Positions 431 through 22,434 of a stretch of 22,500 nt of DNA are shown here, one piece after another. This DNA comes from Neocallimastix lanati (nom. inval.). Taxonomy: Eukaryota > Neocallimastigomycota > Neocallimastigomycetes > Neocallimastigales > Neocallimastigaceae. The DNA lies in the NCBI GenBank assembly GCA_016946835.1, contig JACVTC010000066.1:77501-100000 (forward strand). Reading direction: 5' to 3'. A program made the position numbers and the translations under genes. The notes under the pieces were generated by a model. That model was not told the origin of the DNA. It saw only the letters and a list, made by a program, of their open reading frames with translations, and did not search any database. Numbering within the stretch: the stretch's first letter is position 1; every line of letters starts with the position of its first letter.

Positions 431-1135
431 TACCTATTTTAATATTAATTCTAATATGTTTTATTGAATAATTCATTTACTAATCTTCTTATCCATATAG
501 CTTGTTTTGTACATTTTATTAAAATTGAATATTCGACTTCTGTAGTTGATAAGGCTACATTTTTCTGAGTAATTGATTTCCATTATTAAACTATTGCCTA
601 GTACGAAGATATATCCTAAAGTGGATCTTCTTTTAATTTCTCCATCAGCTCTTAAAATTTTCTTTTCAATATAGCGATTTGAACAATCGTTTGTACTTTT
701 AAGATATTTTCTAATTTGAATACCTGCATTCAAATTAGCCTCTGTTGGATTCTCAGATAATCTTTCAGCTTGGTTTACTGCAAATGCTATATTTGGTCCT
801 GTTTTTGTCGATACATATAATCGAGATCCAATCAATCTTTTATAGCTATTTTTGCTAATTTTTCTAGAATTTTCTCTATCGTTTAATTTTACATTAAAAC
901 GTGGTGTTCTAGTAATTTTAATATTGTTTATATAATAATTAGTTAATTTTCTTTCAATATAATTCTTTTGGTTACTTCTGTAGTTCTTATTTGTTTTAAT
1001 TACATTAATTCCAATTATTTTGTCTACTGGTTTATCTGTGGAAGCTTTGTCTTTATGTTTTACCTTTGTAACAACTTTGGTAATTTCTTTATTCTCTCCT
1101 GAAATTAATATATTATCAACATAAAGTTTCTAGTA
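430..1135 (-). pseudogene. Copia pol fragment: RT catalytic loop and RNase H, frameshifted
   Basis: On the minus strand, about 1135-865 reads as the end of a copia RT, starting with LYVDNILISG where active elements have YVDD, so the second catalytic aspartate is replaced by Asn. A frameshift near 860 leads into an open stretch (835-473) with the hallmarks of the following region: GSRLYVSTKTGPNIAFAVNQ, SENPTEAN, an IRKYLKST-like segment and RRSTLGYIFVLGNS. A second frameshift near 580 restores a WKS...VALSTTEVEY motif, the usual copia RNase H signature, in another frame. This is a dead fragment. The family assignment is firm; exact ends are not. Confidence 0.8.
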
Positions 1136-4077: not shown

Positions 4078-7000
4078 ATGGAAATAATACTTCTTTGTAT
4101 CTACTATCTTATAATAAATATTTTTTATATTCCAAAAATTTATGCAAAAGAATTTATAATTAAAAATAATGATGAAAACTTTTATAATTTAAACAATTTT
4201 TTAAATAGTAATCAAAATAGCAATGAACTGGTATTGTATTTTGTTGATAATTCTTATGATATGAGTTTATTAAAAGAAACAAGTATTGAAGTATTAATTC
4301 AAACTAATGTATCTTTTATTGGTAATAAAAATGGAACCATATTTGACTATAAAAATGGAAGAAAAGGAAATTTATATTTTATATTAAATAACAATAAAGG
4401 AGAAGTAGTAAAAATTGAAAATATCATATTTAAAAATTATTATATAGAATATTACAGTTTTGTATTCAGTATAGCGGTATCAGCATATTCAGATTTTTAT
4501 CACATAATATTTGAAAATTGTATTTTTGAAAGCAATTATGGAGAAATACTTACTTTTATGACATATTGTGTTGAACAAAAACAGATGGAACCACAAATTC
4601 AATTTAATAGATGTAAATTTATGTATGTTTAAAATTTTGATTTACAATTATTTTATAAAAATATATTTAGTATTTTTAAATATATATAGATATATATATT
4701 ATTTAAAAAAAAATGAAAAAATAAAAATGAAATAAAATGAAAAAAAAAAAAAAAAAAAAAAAATAAGTTAAATTAAAAATCTTATCTAAATTAAATTATA
4801 TTTTATACAATAACAAGTAATAATTATGGAAGACTAATATATGGAAGTCATTTCATTGATAAATTTAATTCTGAACCGTATAAATGTTCAGTAATAAAAT
4901 TGACTGATTGTAAATTTATAAGTAATGATATTTATTTTTATTTATCCGGATTCAAATTTATTTTTGAAAACTGTGAGTCCTATACATTTTCATATAATAT
5001 TTTGATCAATATAATAATAAAAAAAAGTATATAATAAATAATTTTATAAAAAAAAAAAATTTTATAGGTTATTTTACAAAAATAAATGGCAATCAGAATA
5101 CTATACCTCCATTATTTATGTCAGAGAATTCGTACAATTTTATAAGATTTAATAATACAATATTTAAAGATATACATGCAAAAAATAAATTACCATTGAT
5201 ACATAGTAGCAAATCAATAATTGAGTAATATAAAATATTATATTATAATAATACTATCATATAAAATAATTGAACTTTTACCATAAAAAAATATATATAT
5301 ATATAAATATATATATTATATATTTTTTCCATTTTATTAAATCATTTCATTTATTTCATCATTTAAAAGAATAGAAAATACTATTTTTTCAAATTGTTCG
5401 TCAAATTATGGTTATTTATTTGATATTAAAAGACATAAGAATTTTCAATATATTATGATAAACAATTCCACTTTTACAAGTACATATTTATTCATTTTTG
5501 AATTAATCTATATTAAATAACTATATTAATATTAAATATACTTTTTATTCTTATAAATAAATTAAAATTAAATAGATGTTTGTTCAATATTTTATGGTGA
5601 ATATACAAATTTCAATATTACAAACTCTCTTTTTAAAAATATAAATTTAAAGAATTCAATAGTAGCTATTATTGATTCAAAATATTCAAATATTAAAATT
5701 AAAAATTGTGATTTTTATAATTTAACGTAATAACTAAAAAAAAAAAAAAAATTGAAGTATTCATAAAGATTTAGTATTACATAATAATATATGATATAAA
5801 TTAACTATTTTGTATATTTATTAACTCATAAATAATATATTTAAAAATAGATTATCAAATTCATTGTTTGAGAAAGAATCTTTTATAACTATGGATAATG
5901 TAAAATTTAAAAATATAAAGTCAAATTCAAAAACTGTTTTATACACTTTACATAATGATATAGCTATGAATAATATTGAAGTAGATAACGTATCATGCAT
6001 TGGAGATAGTGGAGATTCCTCATTTATATTATTCAATTCAAATGAAACCAACAAAAAAATAACAATAAAAAATTTCTATGCTAAAAACTGTATATCAAAT
6101 GGTTCATTTATTACTATCATTGGTAATTCAAATCAACTTGTAATTACTAATTCAACACTACTTAAAATACAATCATATGGACCAATTATTGAAAATTTAT
6201 CCCTTATGGTAAAATAGTAAATATAAATAAATATGAATGAATTAACATATTATCATAACTTTCATATATTATTCTACTAATCCATTTAATTATATATTTT
6301 TTATTTATTTATTTATTTATTTATTTACTTACTAATTTATTTATTTACTTATTTATTTATAATTTTATTTTATTTTATTTTATTTTATTCAATCTGTATT
6401 TTATATTTATATTCTACTATTTATTTTATTTTATTTTATTTTATTCAATCTGTACTTTATATTTATATTCTACTATTTATTTTATTTTATTTTATTTTAT
6501 TCAATTTGTACTTAATTATTCATATTTCAACTATTAATTTTATATATAATTACTTTATTTATATATATATTAATTGATTGATTTAAAGGAAAATATTATT
6601 ATGTCTGAAGTTAATATTATCAGTAATATTAACAATAATAAGTTAAAATGTGGAATAATACACTTTAGAAATAATTTAAATATATCAATTAAAAATTCAA
6701 ACTTCAGCAACAATCATAATAAAAGTAACGGAGGAGCAATGTAAATTAAATAAATATTTATAAATTTAAAAAAAAAAAAAAAATAAAAAAAAAAATAAAA
6801 AATATATATATATTATATTCATTTTATTAAAAAAAATTTTAAAAGATGTATAGATCATATTATTAATGTAGGATTAGAACTAATTTCAAATACATGCAAC
6901 AATAATTTCGCCATTAATGGTGGTGCACTCTACCTAGAAGATGGGATTAACATTGATAAACATAATAACAAAGATATTACTATAAAAAATAATGTTTTTA

Positions 7001-9393
7001 ATGAAAATACTGCTTATAATTTTGGGGGTGCAATATACTCTAAATTTAGTAAATTATATTTAGCTACTTCTGAAAATAATATAATTATTAATAATAAAGC
7101 AGGAATTATGGGTGGAGGAATATATTCACCAAACTTAATTAAATATAATGTTCTTAATATTAATAATAATTGTACTATTAAAAATAATACAATAAATTCC
7201 TTTGAAAACAATTATGCTTCAAAACCATCATATATTCTATTAAAATCCTTATCTAATCCTGAATTAAATAATATAAATGTAGATGATTATATAAACAATT
7301 CAAAAAATAAACCAGATAAATATAAATTCAACATTACATCTGGAGACCATTTGCCTCTATCATTTTTTTTATATGATGAATTTAATAATATTGTTAATGA
7401 TATAACCAAGTATTACTCATCACTTGTATTAAAATTAACAGTGACACCTTCAACTAATCTTGATAAAGAAGAAACTTCAAGAATAAATAATTTATATTCG
7501 TATTTATCGGGTAATATTGGTTCATTTTTAAATGGTAATAAAAATTTTTTCTAAGTAAAAATATCAATATAATATCAATATAAAAACAAAAAAATTATTT
7601 ATTAATTAAAAAAAATAATGAAAAATAAATATAGGTACATGCGAGTTTAGAAATTTTAAAATTAATGCAATCCCGGGTATCTATAACCTAAATATAATCA
7701 TTGAAAATTATAATGATTATATAGAAATTATACCTAAAAATATAGAAATAACTGTTAATGAATGTAATAATAATCAAATAACAATGTATTATAAAAAAAG
7801 TATAATAAGTTGTATAAATCCGATTTGTAATTCAAGATGTAAAAAAGAGGCATCAATATGTAAACCGTATTATAAAGAAAACATTAATGATATTAATAAA
7901 AATATTTGCTTATGCTTAAAAGGATGGAAAGGAACTTTTTGTGAAGAGAAAGAAATCATGAAATTTGAGTAATATATATTATTCATATTAATTAAATAAT
8001 TTATTATTAGTTAAATCAATTTTACTATCTCTAATTAATAATATTTTATTATATAAATATATTTCAATTTTATAATCATTTGATTTACTTTATATATATA
8101 TATATATATAGTAATATAAATAAATTTGCAAGAATTATTTTTATTATTATAGCTTTAGTGATTTTCATATATATTATTTTTATATCATTAAATAAAAAAC
8201 AAAAAATAATTAGTGATTGTGGTTACTACAAAATGCTAATGTTATCTTTTGGATCAGTATTAACTTGTTGTAGTTATTTATTTATATCACGTAATAATTT
8301 TATTAATTGTTCACTATACTTTATAGTGAAAAACATTGGAATTTCGATAATACTTCTTTATTATTATATAAATATAATACTTGCGAACAAATTGGGAATT
8401 AAAATGATAAAGTTTGGTAAAGAAGAAATTAAAATAAATAAATATAATAGCAAAGCAGAATTAAATACATTCAATTTAGGAAATGAATGTTCATATAATA
8501 AAAATATATCATATATGAATTTGAATACTATTACTGATAATTTTAGAAATAATAATATAATTAATAATAATGTTAATAATAACGATTTTAATTCTAAAAT
8601 CGATGATACTTCATTAAATTCTTTTTGTGTAGAAACACATAAAATTTATATAATAAATAATACAAAAAAAATAATATATAGGACAATAATTATTTATATA
8701 ATTTATGTCGTAGTTTTATTTTTTATTTTTTTAAAAAATATTTTAAGCTATAAAAATGAAATATCAAATTTAATACAAGATGACAGTCAAAATTGGAGAT
8801 TTAATTGTAACTTTGAAAATTCTGATTTAATATTAAATTTATTATATTCTGTAATATTTACATTTATTGCATTTATTGGAAATGCAATTTTAAAATACGA
8901 CTGTATATTTGTATTTATTCAATATATCATATATTCATCTATTATATCAGCTATATCCAGTGCTCTAATTGGTGTAATTGCTTAAATAAATAAATAAATA
9001 AATAAATAATACATTATATTACTTATAAAATTTATAAATTAAAAATTTAAAAATTATTTTCTTATATATAATAAAAATTAGGTTTCTTCCTATATTATTT
9101 TTAGGAATAATTATATAACAAAAATTTTTTATGAATTAACTATTAACACCATTGCTTATATAACACTATTTTTATTATTGTCGTGGGATAAGATTTATTA
9201 TATTATAAAGAAAAAAGGAAATGATCCTACTGTCTACTTTATATATAAAAGGCATGAACTATGTTTAACTCATAACTCGAATAGATGTGGATGTAAACTT
9301 ACTATTTCAAAAGAATTGCTATTAAATAATATTGAACAATATATAAATATATATAAAAAATCATCAAAATTTGTACTAAAAGAAGATAAATAA
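4078..9393 (+). CDS. Beta-helix / EGF-like / class C GPCR-like receptor, 11 exons
   Basis: This is a cell-surface receptor-like protein of 1,292 residues, assembled from 11 exons whose ten junctions all keep frame. Residues 1-23 form a signal peptide ending IYA before KEF. Residues about 30-690 are short beta-strand repeats (IxFENCIFESN, ITNSLFKNI, IKNSNFSNN) that end in FNEN...GGAIYS and GGGIYS motifs like chlamydial PMP repeats, indicating a right-handed parallel beta-helix. About 690-835 is a beta-rich stalk with conserved-looking blocks (FFLYDEFNNIVNDITKYYSS). Residues 850-893 form a Cys-rich EGF-like module ending CLCLKGWKGTFC. Helices at about 908-928, 941-961, 969-993, 1090-1113, 1140-1162, 1165-1188 and 1209-1225 form a seven-helix domain. 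Cys968 at the top of helix 3 and Cys1134 in the second outer loop fit the class C GPCR disulfide. Ligand and coupling are unknown. Confidence 0.85.
4623..9081 (+). other. Splice structure of the receptor gene: ten GT-AG introns
   Basis: Exons: 4078-4622, 4818-5026, 5068-5224, 5370-5479, 5576-5726, 5851-6208, 6589-6740, 6846-7534, 7635-7968, 8112-8973 and 9082-9393. Donors read GTATGT, GTATAT, GTAATA, GTACAT, GTAATA, GTAAAA, GTAAAT, GTAATA, GTAATA and GTAATT; every acceptor is AG after AT-rich sequence. Introns run from 41 to 380 bases, most about 100-200. Each intron is close to pure A/T and begins within a few codons of an in-frame stop. Coding sense resumes in family-like motifs at each junction, for example GTCEF at the eighth junction. 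The last junction (8973/9082) is the least certain because two donors overlap there. Confidence 0.82.
6290..6520. repeat. Intronic TTTA microsatellite and 56-bp minisatellite
   Basis: Inside the 380-base sixth intron, a (TTTA)n tract near 6296-6360 is followed by a 56-bp unit repeated about two and a half times. The anchor TATTCAATCTGTA recurs at 6386, 6442 and, with one change, 6498. Each unit consists of a TTTTA run, the anchor and TTATATTTATATTCTACTA. This accounts for this intron being much longer than the others. Confidence 0.88.
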
Positions 9394-9641: not shown

Positions 9642-9900
9642 CTATTTTAACTGATGGTTTAAATCTTGATTATTTAATTTCATAATTAATTCCAAAATAT
9701 CATAGCCAATTTCATTTCCACTTGAATCTCTAGTAATAATTCCAACTACTTCACCATGACAAGAGGAAGAAGAGAACTCAACTGAAGTGACATCTACTTC
9801 ACCATGACAAGAGGAAGAAAAGAACTCAACTGAAGTGACATCTACTTCACCGAAATCCACATTAGAGATACTAATCTCTTATTATTGTTATAAACAAAAG
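9642..9900 (-). pseudogene. LINE C-terminal end relic with tandem 48-bp repeat
   Basis: The minus strand reads GIITRDSSGNEIGYDILELI before a stop. This resembles the C-terminal end of the long LINE in this window (EIITRNNGRCVIIEEWEKLE, about 15200-15130). Upstream of it is a 48-bp direct repeat encoding two copies of a SCHGEVDVTSVEFSSS-type unit. The 72-codon frame is therefore probably a piece of a dead LINE ORF and not a small host gene. Similarity is modest, so this is inference. Confidence 0.5.
9746..9851. repeat. Tandem repeat, 48-bp unit, about 2.2 copies
   Basis: Units start at 9746 and 9794, with a partial third at 9842. Each begins CTACTTCACCATGACAAGAG and ends in CTGAAGTGACAT. The two full copies differ at one base (AAGAAGAG versus AAGAAAAG). 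The period is a multiple of three, so the repeat stays in frame on the minus strand. Confidence 0.95.
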
Positions 9901-11939: not shown

Positions 11940-12107
11940 GCAATTGCAATAAACAATTGTAATAAAAACAATCATTGTACAATGTTTGTTTTTTTTTTAC
12001 TATCACCCTAAGTACCACGAGAATTATTTTGATCTTCTCTACTGATTCTCCATTTTCTTTATTATTTGCTTAAAGCTGTAATTACTACGAATTTAATTTA
12101 CTCAATT

Positions 12108-12680
12108 ATTTATTTATTCATTTATTCATTTATTCATTTATTCATTTATTCATTTATTCATTTATTCATTTATTCATTTATTCATTTATTCATTTATTCA
12201 TTTATTCATTTATTCATTTATTCATTTATTCATTTATTCATTTATTCATTTATTCATTTATTCATTTATTCATTTATTCATTTATTCATTTATTCATTTA
12301 TTCATTTATTCATTTATTCATTTATTCATTTATTCATTTATTCATTTATTCATTTATTCATTTATTCATTTATTCATTTATTCATTTATTCATTTATTCA
12401 TTTATTCATTTATTCATTTATTCATTTATTCATTTATTCATTTATTCATTTATTCATTTATTCATTTATTCATTTATTCATTATTCATATCATTTATTCA
12501 TTTATTCATTATTCATTTATTCATTTATTCATTTATTCATTTATTCATTTATTCATTTATTCATTTATTCATTTATTTTATTCATTTATTCATTTATTCA
12601 TTTATTCATTTATTCATTTATTCATTTATTCATTTATTCATTTATTCATTTATTCATTTATTCATTTATTCATTTATTCT

Positions 12681-12771
<91 letters not shown>

Positions 12772-12790
12772 TTATTTATTTATTTATTTA
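12108..12790. repeat. Octanucleotide satellite (TTCATTTA)n passing into (TTTA)n
   Basis: From about 12108 to 12679 the unit TTCATTTA repeats roughly 70 times with very few errors, broken only by short indels near 12481-12510 and 12573-12580. From 12680 to about 12790 it becomes a pure (TTTA)n run with one slip near 12772. The 8-bp unit is TTTA plus a one-base variant, so it probably grew from the tetranucleotide run. The 241-codon open frame across it is a repeat artefact (HLFIYSFI repeats), not a gene. Confidence 0.97.
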
Positions 12791-13846: not shown

Positions 13847-14990
13847 CTATAGTTTCTGTCTTTCTGTTTCTTCAGCATTGACGCTCTTGGTAGTAGTAGT
13901 ACGATTCGATTTGAACCTATTGAATAAAGACCATTGCTGGTCAATAGCAATAGGTATAATCGATTGAAGAAGTGCCGCAGTAACCACCAAGAATGGAGTA
14001 TCAGAATAAGCACCTGATTTCATCTGGCACTTAAATAGATTCTTCCATTCCCTTGTACTGTTATTAATACTTCGACCTCCAAAAAGGAAATTAAACACTT
14101 TTTTACACACACTAGAATCAACATACACATTATTTTCAATACTATTACTAACATTACTAAAAATACTATTACTAATATTACTATAACTATTATTACTGTT
14201 GCTATTATCATTATTACTATTAACAATATCATTTTGTTAGGTTGCCACGGTTAAAAGCATTATATAAAAATAAAATTTTATCATTAACTTTACTACGAAT
14301 ATGATTGAAAAATGGACAATCGATTAACCTATGACTTATCCATTGTTTATTACTTTTACAACAGGGACAAAAATTAGGACACATTTGATCTGTTATTTTT
14401 TGCAGCTTTAGCAATTCTAGCATCTAATCTATATCCGCTTCGTACTCTCAATAGCCATATGAAAGATCAGGATATTCATAACAAAGTTTTATAAAATTTG
14501 ATGTTTCCTCGAATCGATTTTTGTCGTAAAATTCAGCTTTAATAGAAATGATTTTCATATCTCTTTTCCAATAAAAATACTTGATTTTATTATCGTTATT
14601 ACCTCTTTTTTCTAGTTTACGTTTAAGAGTTCTACTTTCTTTCGTCCATGTATATTTTCTAGATTTTGGAATATTATTAACTAAATAGGAAATAATACAA
14701 TTTGAATCTTTCCATTTATCAAGACATTTGACTTGAAACAAAGCACACTTAGCTGACAATGGAGGAATATTTAAATCTTTTGAGATAGAATATTTGGCTT
14801 TTTGTAAACCTGCAATCCATCTTAATCCTTTATTAATTAATTTCTGAGTATTATTAGTTCTCGCTTTATTTGAATCAAGTAAAGGTGCAAAGTAAGAGAC
14901 TTTACTAAGTACATAGGAGTTAATTATAATCTTCTTAAATGGAATAATGAAATTTTTATATTCTAAAAAATTAGAATAAGAAGGAAGCAA
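13847..14990 (-). pseudogene. LINE B ORF remnant (connector, Cys-rich motif, C-terminus)
   Basis: Open stretches at 14990-14448, 14423-14229 and 14128-13847 together follow the C-terminal half of LINE A. They show LNIPPLSAKCALFQVKCLDK (A: MRIPPLSAICAISQLRCFRK), NIPKSRKYTWTKESRTLKRK (A: NIPTMSHYSWTKESRILDKK), FYWKRD, then a Cys/His cluster CPNFCPCC...SHRLIDC, and finally FGGRSINNS. Frameshifts lie near 14450 and 14375. The Cys/His cluster is the zinc-finger-like motif commonly found downstream of RT in LINEs. The gene is dead. Confidence 0.75.
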
Positions 14991-14994
14991 GGAA
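14981..14994. repeat. Left target-site duplication of LINE A
   Basis: AAGGAAGCAAGGAA at 14981-14994 abuts the poly-T start of LINE A and recurs perfectly at 20178-20191. A 14-bp direct repeat is typical for target-primed reverse transcription. Confidence 0.8.
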
Positions 14995-15111
14995 TTTTTT
15001 TTTTTTTTAGACTAAGAGAGTAACTATTTTTAATTTATAATAATAATAAAATTACATGATTTTAAAAAAAAAAAATAAAATACATGAAATAAAATATTAC
15101 ATATTATAAAA

Positions 15112-17448
15112 TTATAAAAGTGCGTTAGAAGCAATAGCCTCTAACTTTTCCCATTCCTCGATAATAACACAACGTCCATTATTGCGAGTAATAATTTCAG
15201 TATTAGTATTATCAAACGAATCTGTATCTGGAGGTGAAAATCCATGCCTTATCATTTCGACGTCGACGCTCTTGGAAACGATAGATTCAATGGAATACCA
15301 TTTCATCATCAATCTAAAAGATCGACAAATTAATGGTATTACGTTTGTTAAAAACTCCGCAATCCCCACAAAATACGGAACAGTTGACGAAGTTGAACTT
15401 TGTTTAAAAATATTGTCAACTAATTGTCTTTGTTCCCCATCATTAACTTTAATTTTTGAATATATTGAACGCCCATCAAAAAGAGCACTCATATAATAAT
15501 AAATATTATTATCATAATCCTTTTCTGAATCTAAAGAAACATTCAAGGATTTTTGTTCAATTATCATTGCAAACTTCAAAAAGAGATCATCTAGAAAAGG
15601 TAAAGATTTATTTCTGTAATTTTCCAATTCTTTACAGGCAAAGATCCAGTGAGAAAAGCTAGGTACACTAACACCACAACAAGGGCAACATTTAGGGCAA
15701 TCTTTTGATACGATTTTTCTTTTAATGGAAATACTAATATCAAATTTAAAACCACACCTAATTCGAGAAATCCAAAAGAATCCCAACTGATACTTAGGAT
15801 ATTGAAATGTTGAATTTCTGATTTCTGAAATAAATCCAAAATCATTCTCCTTGTAAATAATTTCTTTTTTAGCTTTTGAGGATTTGAAGACATCTCTTTC
15901 CCAATAAAACTTTTTTATTTCACTTGGTTTTTTACTATTCAATTTCTTATCCAAAATCCTTGATTCTTTAGTCCATGAGTAATGTGACATAGTAGGAATA
16001 TTATTAGTGAGATGATTAATAATACATGATGAATTTTTCCATTTTCTAAAGCATCGTAATTGAGAAATTGCACAGATAGCTGAAAGAGGAGGTATTCTCA
16101 TTTCAAGAGTAATATCATAGAGACTAACAGAAGAATTGCGAGATTTAAATCCATAACTCCAATAAAGTCCTCTATTAATAATTTTTTGAGCTTTAAAACA
16201 TCTGTTCTTATTTAAACCAAAGAGAGGAGCATAATATATAACAAGACTAAGAATAAACGAAATTAAAACATATTTCTTCAATGGGAGAGGAATAGATTTA
16301 TTAATAAGAAATCGAAAGTACAAATTTAACTTGATATTTAAATTACTGTTTAATTTGGATTGTATAGGTTTCAATGATAAAGATTTATCAAAAGGAATAC
16401 CAAGATAGGTATAGTTGTCAGTTTTAGGTAATTTGTTACTACCAATAAAGAAAGATGGATCTTCATAATTTATCGGTTTAACAAAGTTAATCGGTTTTAC
16501 AACAAGAATAGCACACTTATTAATTCCAAAAGTCATTTCATTTTTAATAGCCCATTCATGAACTTTATTCAAAATTTTCTTAAGAGCTTGTTTAGATGGA
16601 GCAACTAAAGCAATATCATCCGCAAAAAGTCCACCACAACAATATTGAGAATCTAAATATACGCCATACTTATCACAATTATCCAGTATATCATTAATGA
16701 ACAATTTGAATAAAATAGGAGATAGAGGGCATCCTTTGTCGAACACCACGATTAATCGAAAATTCATCTGAGAGATTACCATTAAAAAAAGCACGAGCTT
16801 AAGAGGATAGGTAAAGATTCTTTAAAAACAGATGACATTTATCTCTAATTCCTAAGTTATATAATTTGGTCAAAATATTAAAGATAGGTACTGAATCATA
16901 GGTTTTTTTAAGATCGAGAAAAGCAAGATAAGTAAAATTTCCTTGAAATTTTCTTCTTTGACATATCTCTCTAATTGAAATATATAAACTTATGCATTCT
17001 TCTTTATTTCTAAATTCAAATTGTTCATGTCTAACAAATTTATGTTCAAGGGCATATTTAGCAATTCTATTAGTAGCAAAGAGGAATATTTATCGTCATC
17101 AACTGAAGAATCATTTTGATTATCGGATAAATTAGATTTACCAAAGAAGGCTTTAAAAAATTCAATCGAAATACCATCGGGTCCAGGAGCTTTATTATTT
17201 TTCATTTCAAGCACAGTGTTTTGAATTTCTTCCATAGTAATAGAATCATTAATATCCCAAGTAGGATTATTATTAGGATTAGTTCCAAATAAACTTACCC
17301 AATCTTCATTATCCAAACTGTGTTGAGTAACATCAGAAGCTAGTTCACTATAATGTTCAGCAAATCGATTTAATTGATCCGAATGAGAAAATAAAAAGTT
17401 ACCCTGCTTGTCCTTTAAAACACTTGACGAAATAGAATTAGAGTACAT
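15112..17448 (-). pseudogene. LINE A reverse transcriptase and C-terminal region, broken
   Basis: RT motifs appear in order on the minus strand but in different frames. NNKAPGPDGISIEF lies near 17200-17160; a frameshift follows near 17090. FLDLKKTYDSVP (motif A with its catalytic Asp) lies near 16925-16890. A TAA stop is near 16800, then a frameshift near 16740 between the GVRQ part and CPLSPILFKLFINDI (motif B region). GGLFADDIALVA carries the catalytic FADD at 16626-16615. The last open stretch (16794-15112, 560 codons) continues through the thumb and connector to a Cys/His cluster (C366, C369, C372, C373, H382, C387 of that stretch) and a C-terminal domain. Three lesions make it non-functional. 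Confidence 0.88.
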
Positions 17449-17471
17449 AGGGTGAGATAGCTTCTTTAATT

Positions 17472-19025
17472 TTAACCAAGCACTCCTAGCATTTTTATTA
17501 CGAAAATCATTACATCAGATTCTATTGACTGATGAAATTGTTTTGATTTAATAGAAAACTTAATTGACCTGACTTTACCACATATATTTTTATACTCACG
17601 AAGCAAATTTAAAAATTCATCAAGGTTTTCGAGATTAGAACCTAAAGAAAAATTTTTGATTACATTAAATGCAACATGCTTTTCATGAGAAAGTTTCTTG
17701 ATATAATAAGGGCAGTGGAAAGTTGAGCCTTTAAGATCACAAGGAACTCTAGCATGAACTTTATCACCAACTTTATTAGCTGTTTCTATAAATTTATTGA
17801 CCATTTCATTAGAACTTAGGTCTTCATTATCATCAAATTCATTAAGAAGAACTAAGAAGTAGTTACTTGAGAATATTTCATTTTGCTTTTCATTACACAT
17901 GTGTTGGGACCATTTGAATCTTCTAGAAGGAGAAGGAGCACGAAAACCTTCTGAGTCATCTTTCTTACAGGAAAGGATAAGAGGGATGTGGTCAGATATA
18001 TCATTAAATGTACTACAAACAGATACCTTATTAATGTATTTCTTCATTTTACAATTAAATAAAACATGATCAATACAAGACGATCTACCGTCCCGAGCCC
18101 ATGTGAAAACAAGACCTGATAAGTTTTTAGTGAACCATTGATGTGATGATTTATAAAGTAAACTATCTAATTGAGATTTAGACATATTAAAGTCACCTAC
18201 AAGAATAGAAGGTGTATTAATATGTTTCTTTATCCAATTAGTAATTTCTGAAAAGGCATTCTTTCTTTCTTCCTTATGAGTGACCGTAGGAACATAAATA
18301 TTACCAATAGTGCATTTAATTCCCCAAAAAGAAGTAATGTTGAGAGAAATGATATACTTATATTCAAAAGGATCAGGAGAAAATGAACAAGAACGATGTA
18401 CACTTATACTAAGACCTCTCATACCGGGTATATTTGGATTAGATTTTCGTAAAATTGTATTATAGTGACAAAGAAATGGGTAATTATTTGAATGTACATT
18501 AAGGTATTGGTTATTACCGACCTCTTTCAAGCAAATACAGATGGGTTTAAAAGTTTCATTAAAGTATCTAATACCATCACGTTTTTCATCACTCCATCCA
18601 TTAATGTTCCAACTGATACAAAGATTAAAGAACTGAGTAGACGGTGAGTAAATACTACTATAAAGAAAATCTTTAACCATTGATTTAGTTTCAAAAGAAG
18701 AAAATTTGTTGTTAAATTTCTTAACTTCACTGAAAGTTCTGATTTTGTTGGTTTGGATCCAATTAATTTTATAGATTGGAAGGCAATGGGTAAGAAGAAA
18801 TAAAATATTTAGGTAATAAGTGGGTTTATCATAGTTTATCCTTAAAATGAAGTAATTTTCCATATTAGGTGTGTGTTTTTTTGTAATTCCATGAACTATT
18901 TCATTGCAATTGGAAATACGTTTACTAAGAAATTCCCAAAGTTTACTAACAGACCATGATTGAAGATCATGAATAAAGATAAGAATGAAATCTTTATTCT
19001 GAATATCGTATATCGAAGGCCACAC
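17472..19025 (-). pseudogene. LINE A apurinic-type endonuclease ORF
   Basis: This 517-codon open stretch carries an endonuclease/exonuclease/phosphatase fold at residues about 133-352. Its residues are SWNINGW (catalytic Asn, 139-144), LKEVG (metal-binding Glu at 168), GDFN (277-280), IDHVLF (319) and SDH (344-346), so the known catalytic positions look intact. It nicks target DNA in LINE retrotransposition. The first 130 residues are unassigned. There is no ATG at the open end; an ATG at about 19060 lies in another frame, so the start is either lost or frameshifted. The stretch ends in a frameshift near 17500 before the RT region, so the original single pol ORF is broken. Confidence 0.85.
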
Positions 19026-19069
19026 CGCAAAACAGGTATAGTTGCTGAATTTGAAGAAGTATTATTCAT

Positions 19070-20916: not shown

Positions 20917-22434
20917 CTAATCCAAGAGAGCTCTGAATTGTTCTTCAATTTCCTTTTGTAACTTAGCATATCTTTCCTTAATAACTTCTTCACCATCAGC
21001 TGGATCTTCGAATTTCATGGAAGAAAGCTTGTAGATAACATCAGACATACTGTCACGAATCTTGTTCCAAGTAATTTGGTTGGAAGAAGCTTCAACAGCG
21101 TGAATAGATTGATCGTAGAAGTACATCATGTTTCTGAGCATACCGACGGTCTTGTAGAATGGACAGTAACGATCGTAGGTAGAGTAACCGTTTTGTTGAA
21201 GGAAATCATCCTTAATAATTCTAGCAACTTCTAAAGTAATCTTATCACTTTCAGCAAGAGCAGACTTACCGACTAATTGAACAATTTCAGAAAGATCTTC
21301 TTCTTGTTGAAGAATTTCTCTGGCCTTAGTTCTAAGACTAATGAAATCTGGATCGAAGGATTCGTAGAATGGTTCTAAAGCCTTAGTGTACTTAGAGTAA
21401 GAAAGATTCCAGTTAACAGATGGGAAGTGCTTACGTTGAGCTAACTTCTTATCTAAAGCCCAGAATACTTGGACAATGGAAAGAGTAGAGGTAGTAACGG
21501 TATCAGAGAAATCACCACCTGGTGGAGATACGGCACCGACAATAGAAACGGAACCAGTACGGTTTGGAGAACCAATAGCAGTAACCTTACCAGCTCTTTC
21601 GTAGAAGGAAGCAAGACGGGCACCAAGATAAGCTGGGTAACCAGAATCAGCTGGCATTTCAGCTAAACGACCAGAAATTTCACGAAGAGCTTCAGCCCAA
21701 CGAGAAGTAGAATCAGCCATCATAGCGACATCACGACCTTGATCACGGAAGTATTCAGAAAGAGTAATACCAGTGTAAATGGAAGCTTCACGAGCAGCGA
21801 CAGGCATGTTAGAGGTGTTAGCGACTAAAGTAGTACGCTTCATAATTGGTTCTTGACGACCATCAACAGTAAGAGTTAATTCTGGGAATTCCATAAGTAC
21901 TTCAGCCATTTCGTTACCACGTTCACCACAACCGACGTAAATAATAACATCAGAGTTAGAGTACTTAGAAAGAGATTGGGAAATGACAGTCTTACCACAA
22001 CCGAAAGCACCTGGAATAGCAGTAGTACCACCTTGGACACATGGGAAAAGAGCATCAAGGACACGTTGACCAGTTAATAATGGGTAGTCAGCAGCTAACT
22101 TTTCAGCACATGGACGTGGAGTACGGACAGGCCATAATTGCATCATAGTGAATTTGGACTTTTCACCTTCGAATTCAGTTTCAAGAACAACATCTTCTAA
22201 AGTGTAAGAACCCTTTGGAGCAATGTAGGTAATAGTACCACAAGCCTTTGGTGGGAGCATAATGTAGTGAGTAATTAAAGAGTTTTCAGCAACCTTACCG
22301 TAAATATCACCACCAGTAATGTGGTCACCAACCTTGAAGTTTTGTGGTTCAAAGTCCCAAGAAACCTTCTTATCTAATGATGGGGTGTTAATACCACGTG
22401 GAAGATAGATAGACTTGGAAATTTCGTGAATACC
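20917..22434 (-). CDS. VMA1: V-type proton ATPase catalytic subunit A, last exon (5' partial)
   Basis: This is the catalytic A subunit of the V1 sector, which hydrolyses ATP to drive protons into vacuoles and other acidic compartments; it alternates with subunit B in the hexameric head. The exon encodes the last 505 residues of a protein usually near 615. It has the barrel-to-core region [10 protein letters not shown], then HITGGDIYG, the P-loop GAFGCGKT (22011-21988), [50 protein letters not shown] and [20 protein letters not shown], ending ALLD-stop. No intein interrupts it, unlike in baker's yeast. Coding sense continues upstream of the first Met at 22260 to an AG acceptor at 22436-22435, so the exon starts at 22434 and about 110 N-terminal residues lie outside the window. 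Codons are strongly biased toward C-ending and GGT types, as in highly expressed genes. Confidence 0.97.

Follow-up and report, generated by a model that had tools for sequence, protein, structure and literature searches.

Class C GPCRs are marked by a pair of cysteines, one topping TM3 and the other lying in the second outer loop, and by a short third inner loop, and their G-protein interface includes the second intracellular loop. In animal adhesion (class B2) GPCRs, the seven helices bear a long, adhesive ectodomain that includes EGF modules. Adhesion GPCRs are discussed by Seppala et al. (2016; PMC5168858), who reported that anaerobic gut fungi have class C receptors carrying pectin-lyase/beta-helix and EGF-like domains, found in transcriptomes by BLAST and InterPro annotation keywords together with a count of TM helices. 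A first-pass annotation of the DNA analysed here had pointed out, correctly, that class C GPCR-like proteins with unusual ectodomains had been noted in gut fungi, and most of the novelty of the architecture is gone because the 2016 paper, in the part of its text available, already reports it. Here we describe a gene from Neocallimastix lanati (nom. inval.) that we judge, with some assurance, to encode one receptor in a set of about 50 single-chain paralogues that constitute a divergent branch of class C, the fibre-sensing mechanism proposed below included.

Results

The window, that is the whole stretch of DNA analysed, comprises 22,500 nt (GCA_016946835.1, contig JACVTC010000066.1, positions 77,501-100,000 of the forward strand). 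The receptor gene lies at 4078-9393 (+) and has 11 exons and 10 introns, all GT-AG. Its join is open from the ATG at 4078 to the TAA at 9393 and yields a product of 1,292 aa, thus returning the ten introns, intact frame and length claimed by the first-pass annotation. A hydropathy scan gives a signal peptide and seven hydrophobic helices, and the domain order from the N to the C terminus is signal peptide, PMP-type repeats, stalk, EGF-like knot, seven helices and tail:

Exon 1, 4078..4622 (+): signal peptide (about aa 1-23) and first predicted beta-helix rungs
Exon 2, 4818..5026 (+): predicted beta-helix repeats; outside the match to paralogue L052
Exon 3, 5068..5224 (+): predicted beta-helix repeats; preceded by the 41-bp intron
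Exon 4, 5370..5479 (+): predicted beta-helix repeats; both borders present in L052
Exon 5, 5576..5726 (+): predicted beta-helix repeats; both borders present in L052
Exon 6, 5851..6208 (+): predicted beta-helix repeats; both borders present in L052
Exon 7, 6589..6740 (+): predicted beta-helix repeats; first appearance of the GGA motif
Exon 8, 6846..7534 (+): GGAI repeats of PMP type, as far as about 7261, and the opening portion of the beta-rich stalk, from about 7321 on
Exon 9, 7635..7968 (+): remainder of the stalk, followed by the EGF-like Cys knot at about 7763-7948
Exon 10, 8112..8973 (+): TM1-TM6, with a long, variable intracellular loop 2, the Cys at the top of TM3 and W-x3-C in ECL2
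Exon 11, 9082..9393 (+): TM7 (W-D-K-I-Y-Y-I) and cytoplasmic tail, including the stop codon
Tail motif C-x2-H-x-S-x2-C-x-C, 9262..9294 (+): aa 1250-1260; candidate metal site

Exon 8 is taken to end at 7534 because paralogues continue with ..GNIGSFxNGxCEx.. across this 3' junction; an end at 7510, which would give 1,284 aa, is ruled out by their reading through to 7534. A chance join or a decayed gene is ruled out by open-frame probabilities and conserved introns. With a stop probability of 0.106 per codon at this base composition, the chance of an open frame is 7.8e-12 for exon 8 (229 codons) and 1.2e-14 for exon 10 (287 codons), values so low that chance is excluded. The phase-2 intron at aa 561 is present in 13/13 paralogous loci aligned, the phase-1 intron at aa 791 (aa 783 in the 1,284-aa numbering) in 9/13 (two are without it, one has a different arrangement and one alignment ends early), and the phase-0 intron between TM6 and TM7 in 11/12 (one off by one residue) and in 7/10 additional loci. 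Paralogue L052, whose match runs from aa 228 on, has 8/8 aligned introns at the identical residue and phase, and the reverse projection recovers the same eight plus one spurious extra intron in a variable stretch. For intron 1, support comes from paralogue matches that stop at aa 181-183 in several loci, and the 41-bp intron 2 is the least well supported of the ten.

The genome holds approximately 51 related loci, counted as position clusters in which matches less than 3.5 kb apart were joined (C249 and C394 have identical match rows) from a search in which 36 of 5,286 candidates were scored; 35 of the loci have matches to both stalk and TM domain. One of the 51 clusters overlaps the places in the genome that match PF00003 (at least 131, with 150 of 303 candidates scored, so that the overlap may be understated). 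Viral contigs searched for relatives contained 28 pattern stretches, none of them related. Among the family alignments, A2 omits L008, L009 and L019, whose domains are incomplete, and A3 omits L055 and L057 (deviating tail frame; stops in the contiguous exon).

Judged from its sequence, the ectodomain of the window gene is made of PMP/GGAI-type repeats. Exon 8 matches Chlam_PMP (PF02415) at 21.9 bits in a Pfam scan, above the cut-off of 20.6, and the whole 1,284-aa version scores 15.3 bits, under that cut-off. Chlam_PMP also matches 8/9 paralogue repeat segments, and ten bacterial genome loci match part of exon 8 at 23-47% identity. A pattern of the I-x-I-x-N-x-x-F type, picked after inspection of the sequence, occurs eight times where 1.0 is expected, and 0/2000 shuffles reach eight. 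A whole-genome Chlam_PMP search returned no match at E<=0.001, and autocorrelation of hydrophobic or Asn/Asp positions gave no rung period in the ectodomain. Of the PMP-like beta-helix that had been proposed for this gene, the PMP repeats stand in exon 8 and in the paralogues, but no solved beta-helix was retrieved at E<=1 in a PDB profile search with the repeat segment, which returned EGF chains only.

The Cys-rich knot that follows the stalk was rightly called EGF-like, since all 23 PDB matches of the family knot profile are EGF-type (best E 0.0084); single-sequence Pfam EGF matches are under the cut-off. The knot has six cysteines with C-x-C and a G-W/Y turn ahead of the last, and its Cys columns are invariant in all nine rows of alignment A5. 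The stalk-EGF module is also, as its alignments indicate, homologous to that of L005 (C101), a PF00003 receptor of the same genome with a different outer domain and a 7tm_3 match at 6.8e-36: a single BLASTP comparison gives 1e-10 over 179 columns, and tblastn over the whole genome gives 1.6e-5. A search of the genome with the L005 module as query found itself and three weak places (E 0.006-0.009), the window gene not being among them. Reading the long listed frames L063-L065 by eye gave no receptor joining a beta-helix to PF00003. Pfam matches were found neither for a Venus-flytrap (ANF) ligand domain, in whose stead PMP repeats stand, nor for a nine-cysteine domain ahead of TM1, in whose stead the EGF-like knot stands.

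The membrane domain had been called class C GPCR-type, which the family as a whole bears out by reaching 7tm_3 (PF00003), but the TM domain of the window gene alone matches no Pfam family at E<=1. Seven of the 21 family TM domains scanned match 7tm_3, the best at E 9.8e-7 and 29.1 bits against a cut-off of 33.5, which none of the 21 reaches; no other receptor family is matched. These matches sit at corresponding profile positions, the best stretch covering TM1-3 in six members and TM4-7 in one. Aligned by hhalign to 17 PF00003-positive domains, the family profile (19 sequences) scores 41.5, the best of 60 block-shuffled controls 25.5 and reversed profiles 16, which rules out an unrelated TM protein. 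The confident local alignment spans 82 columns, TM1-3 only, the global one 236 columns with a weak later part, and the probabilities are 32-65%. An HMM built from the 17 domains reached 2/12 family members, weakly, and 0/108 controls. A PDB profile search with the TM domain gave an ABC transporter (E 0.72) as best match and a GABA-B receptor at E 6.3, both insignificant. In alignment A1, Cys66 (top of TM3) and Cys232 (second outer loop) are conserved in 90% or more of 12 sequences and W228 is invariant; the third inner loop, read by eye, has about five residues.

It is conceivable that these proteins are seven-helix receptors of a kind other than class C, their likeness to 7tm_3 reflecting hydrophobic convergence. 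The sub-threshold individual scores, the absence of any match between the family profile and the L005 TM domain alone (E 0.38) and the restriction of the confident profile alignment to TM1-3 would fit such a scenario. However, all matches are to one Pfam family, at corresponding positions and in both halves of the domain, the shuffled and reversed controls score far lower, and a PF00003 receptor has a homologous juxtamembrane module, so that we regard convergence as highly improbable. On the available sequences, the family is a divergent class C (7tm_3) branch, a remote assignment that is carried by the family as a whole.

The cytoplasmic tail contains the motif C-x2-H-x-S-x2-C-x-C, five positions of which are invariant in 11/11 family tails; few elements of the TM-tail alignment are as well conserved. 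The form C-x2-H-x4-C-x-C was seen in 16/22, then 1/2 and then 2/2 further loci, in total in 30/37 tails read. None of 20 control PF00003 loci shows it (0/17 with a visible tail; three frames stop before TM7). The conserved Cys and His residues may hold a metal ion and thereby fix or couple the tail. The motif is apparently undescribed so far.

Conservation is uneven along the chain, and mean identity in ten pairs of five genes bears on what the seven helices do. A polytopic adhesin, whose beta-helix fibre grips plant or bacterial surfaces and whose helices are a degenerate, non-signalling anchor, would explain why the last beta-helix exons (51.8%) are more alike than TM1-3 (39.8%) or TM4-6 (32.7%) and why the TM domain has drifted beneath Pfam recognition. 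However, TM7 (52.1%) and the tail (42.2%) with its invariant positions are conserved, and an inert anchor needs neither; moreover, the stalk-EGF module ahead of TM1 is common to a clear 7tm_3 receptor. An adhesin is thus unlikely. The prominence of the tail motif and the very variable second intracellular loop (21.8%) could alternatively mean that the tail recruits partner proteins (arrestin-like, a kinase or a metal-dependent scaffold) rather than that the helices switch a G protein. Such a recruiter has no known partner, however, and the genome does contain G-alpha matches, one near-complete and stop-free and many at exon level; we consider recruitment in place of G-protein switching a distinctly poor prospect.

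Discussion

Signalling by a divergent class C receptor with a fibre-like outer domain is the scenario that we favour. The repeats would fold as a right-handed beta-helix fibre projecting from the cell and would bind a ligand displayed on a surface; a polysaccharide of plant walls or microbes is the likeliest candidate, although polysaccharide as the ligand is speculation. The stalk and EGF knot would relay the binding or the pull to the bundle of helices, which would then switch a heterotrimeric G protein, with the tail perhaps fixed or coupled through metal binding. A bolder version, which we entertain with considerable doubt, is that some 50 class C-like receptors form a hidden clade whose helix bundles have slipped beneath what domain libraries recognise and whose signature is a cytosolic C-x2-H-x4-C-x-C site directly after TM7. 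This site would be a metal-bound knuckle that couples mechanical load on the fibre to signalling, and the outer domains would be swapped on a fixed stalk-EGF-7TM chassis.

Receptors whose outer domain resembles a fibre are obvious candidates for the sensing or gripping of plant fibre by anaerobic fungi. Receptor counts based on the Pfam 7tm_3 cut-off would overlook this group because all of its scanned TM domains fall below it. The tail motif offers a precise residue target for functional tests.

Among known systems, chlamydial polymorphic membrane proteins (PF02415) and bacterial GGA-repeat proteins share GGAI/FxxN repeats with the window gene, a likeness at the level of the repeat only that is not evidence of shared origin. 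Adhesion (class B2) GPCRs resemble it in their way of working only. The beta-helix receptors of the 2016 gut-fungal set, 30% of it, come closer: compared by description, they and the predicted product have a large ectodomain of beta-helix repeats followed on one chain by seven helices assigned to class C, with an EGF-like domain in the window gene and in a few of those receptors (PMC5168858), and with neither an ANF ligand domain nor a nine-cysteine domain in the product or, in the available part of that report, in the receptors. The window group differs from them in that 21/21 of its domains lie below the 7tm_3 cut-off, and neither its tail motif nor the shared chassis is among the features found described in that part of the text. 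The most direct comparison is with L005, which has a homologous stalk and EGF-like knot immediately N-terminal of TM1 and a strong 7tm_3 match but, unlike the window gene, no PMP match, a weak match to Peripla_BP_2 (E 0.044) and no tail motif. With one stalk-EGF module beneath two different outer domains, domain exchange becomes testable. The protein looks like a fixed stalk-EGF-7TM chassis bearing an outer domain that can be exchanged.

Gene model and genomic surroundings

The receptor gene has a GC content of 17%; such low GC, together with the gene content, is consistent with an anaerobic gut fungus as the probable source. The gene lies in a window (C621:77501-100000) of a 199 Mb assembly of 762 contigs, alongside the following features:

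473-1129 (-): copia-type reverse transcriptase fragment (RVT_2 5.7e-6, 26.5 bits, under the cut-off of 31.6)
4078-9393 (+): receptor gene
9746-9851: 48-bp unit in 2.2 copies (98% match), immediately downstream of the receptor gene
12096-12788: 8-bp repeat ATTTATTC in about 88 copies, with three frames open, an artefact of the FIHLFIYS type
14448-15011 (-): open frame, no Pfam match
15112-16821 (-): reverse transcriptase open frame (Pfam)
16990-17514 (-): open frame, no Pfam match
17472-19061 (-): endonuclease open frame (Pfam)
20917-22434 (-): V-type ATPase catalytic subunit A, judged by three ATP-synthase Pfam domains, in the GC-richer end of the window

The pieces at 14448-19061 (-) belong to a LINE-like element.

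Eleven exons, joined across ten GT-AG introns, encode 1,292 residues, and open frames as long as these exons are not expected by chance. Paralogues and the partial tandem neighbour upstream of the window read GNIGSFxNGxCEx across the junction, which settles the exon 8 end in favour of the first-pass annotation. In a splice-aware alignment from residue 228, the fungal paralogue L052 has counterparts of introns 3-10, all eight agreeing with the window gene in residue position and phase; the query was the joined window protein, which hence guided the alignment, and GT-AG sites cannot be invented by a script. Projecting the L052 prediction back onto the window returns the same eight introns plus a spurious one. 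Elsewhere in the family, 13 of 13 loci share the phase-2 intron at residue 561 and 9 of 13 the phase-1 intron at residue 791; the phase-0 intron preceding TM7 is present in 11 of 12 loci and in 7 of 10 of a further set. The tandem neighbour (L106:49-2418) sits on the same contig, some 2.6-5 kb before the window begins, and has beta-helix, stalk and EGF exons; a run of N comes after this sequence, hiding the membrane part.

Ectodomain

Exon 8 by itself matches Chlam_PMP, the PMP repeat family, with 21.9 bits (cut-off 20.6), and the whole chain scores 15.3 bits, under that cut-off; eight of nine paralogue segments also match. A pattern of the I-x-I-x-N-x-x-F type, picked post hoc from sequence already inspected, occurs 8 times versus 1.0 in shuffles, none of 2000 shuffles reaching as high. 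Comparable GGA-repeat stretches occur at ten loci in bacterial genomes, with 23-47% identity to part of exon 8; this is a likeness of repeats and no proof of bacterial origin. Two results count against the beta-helix fold that we infer for the repeats: a repeat-segment profile retrieves no solved beta-helix from the PDB at E<=1, and a search of the ectodomain for a rung period saw none.

Repeats and TM1 are linked by a module that a nine-row alignment shows to be well conserved, its cysteines being invariant, and all 23 PDB hits of its profile at E<=1 are EGF-type chains (best E 0.0084). A homologous module (BLASTP 1e-10, 179 columns) precedes TM1 in L005, a clear 7tm_3 receptor (E 6.8e-36) with no PMP match. 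Used as a whole-genome query, the window's module reaches L005 at 1.6e-5; the converse search, with the L005 module as query, misses the window gene. Given this homology, one stalk-EGF-7TM chassis appears to be common to both receptor types, whose outer domains differ.

Membrane domain and tail

At E<=1, Pfam offers no match for the helices of the window gene. Among 21 family TM domains scanned, seven give hits to 7tm_3 that agree in profile position (best E-values 9.8e-7 for L105 and 6.1e-6 for L062), and none exceeds its cut-off. Compared with 17 PF00003-positive domains from this genome, profiles of smaller family sets give E 3.7e-4 and 5e-4, and a 19-sequence profile gives E 6.3e-5 with a score of 42 over 82 columns, corresponding to TM1-3; the highest score is 25.5 among 60 block-shuffled controls and 16 among reversed profiles. 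When a global alignment is forced, it extends over 236 columns (query 5-345, template 1-251). However, several results count against a class C assignment: the probabilities of the profile comparison are no better than 32-65%, the family profile finds nothing against the TM domain of L005 alone, an HMM built from the PF00003 set picks up just 2 of 12 family members (and 0 of 108 controls), and hits of the TM-domain profile in the PDB are all insignificant. On balance, we take the membrane domain to be a divergent class C bundle. Its second intracellular loop is long and variable.

Directly behind TM7 lies C-x2-H-x-S-x2-C-x-C, with five positions invariant in 11 of 11 aligned sequences. The form C-x2-H-x4-C-x-C is kept in 16 of 22 further loci and in L100, L056 and L060, though not in L101, amounting to 30 of 37 family tails; the 17 PF00003 loci whose tail is visible all lack it. 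The motif is a candidate metal site, and the literature searched, including passages of PMC5168858, yielded no description of it. Another PF00003 receptor pair, L006 and L007, carries a distinct cysteine cluster, CQIINNELQCPDCGC, at the C-terminal ends.

Family size and possible function

The whole-protein, TM-part and stalk matches listed form about 51 position clusters, 35 of them with both stalk and TM parts; tandem clusters with 5-12 kb spacing occur on contigs C721, C69 and C554. One of the 51 overlaps a PF00003 place, among at least 131 listed (150 of 303 candidates scored). Because the genome holds 51 exon-level G-alpha matches, signalling partners for these receptors are plausible. Our best guess is that the window gene encodes a fibre-tipped contact receptor, whose ligand would be a surface polysaccharide and which may transmit contact by coupling to a G protein. 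The sequence data show the gene itself, its repeats, the homology of the module, the helices and the conservation of the tail; fold, ligand, transmission and coupling are inferred.

Comparison with known receptors

For three gut fungi, PMC5168858 reports class C receptors numbering about 100, of which about 30% have a pectin-lyase fold; some of the latter have parallel beta-helix repeats and a few an EGF-like domain, and an ANF domain is reported there as not found. PMC8665504 reports up-regulation of class C receptors on Avicel and xylan when a methanogen is present. Since beta-helix/EGF class C receptors of gut fungi thus feature in PMC5168858, the architecture of the window gene is already known. 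What is added here is the size of the group, its position under the Pfam cut-off, a stalk-EGF module that recurs beneath a different outer domain, and the tail motif.
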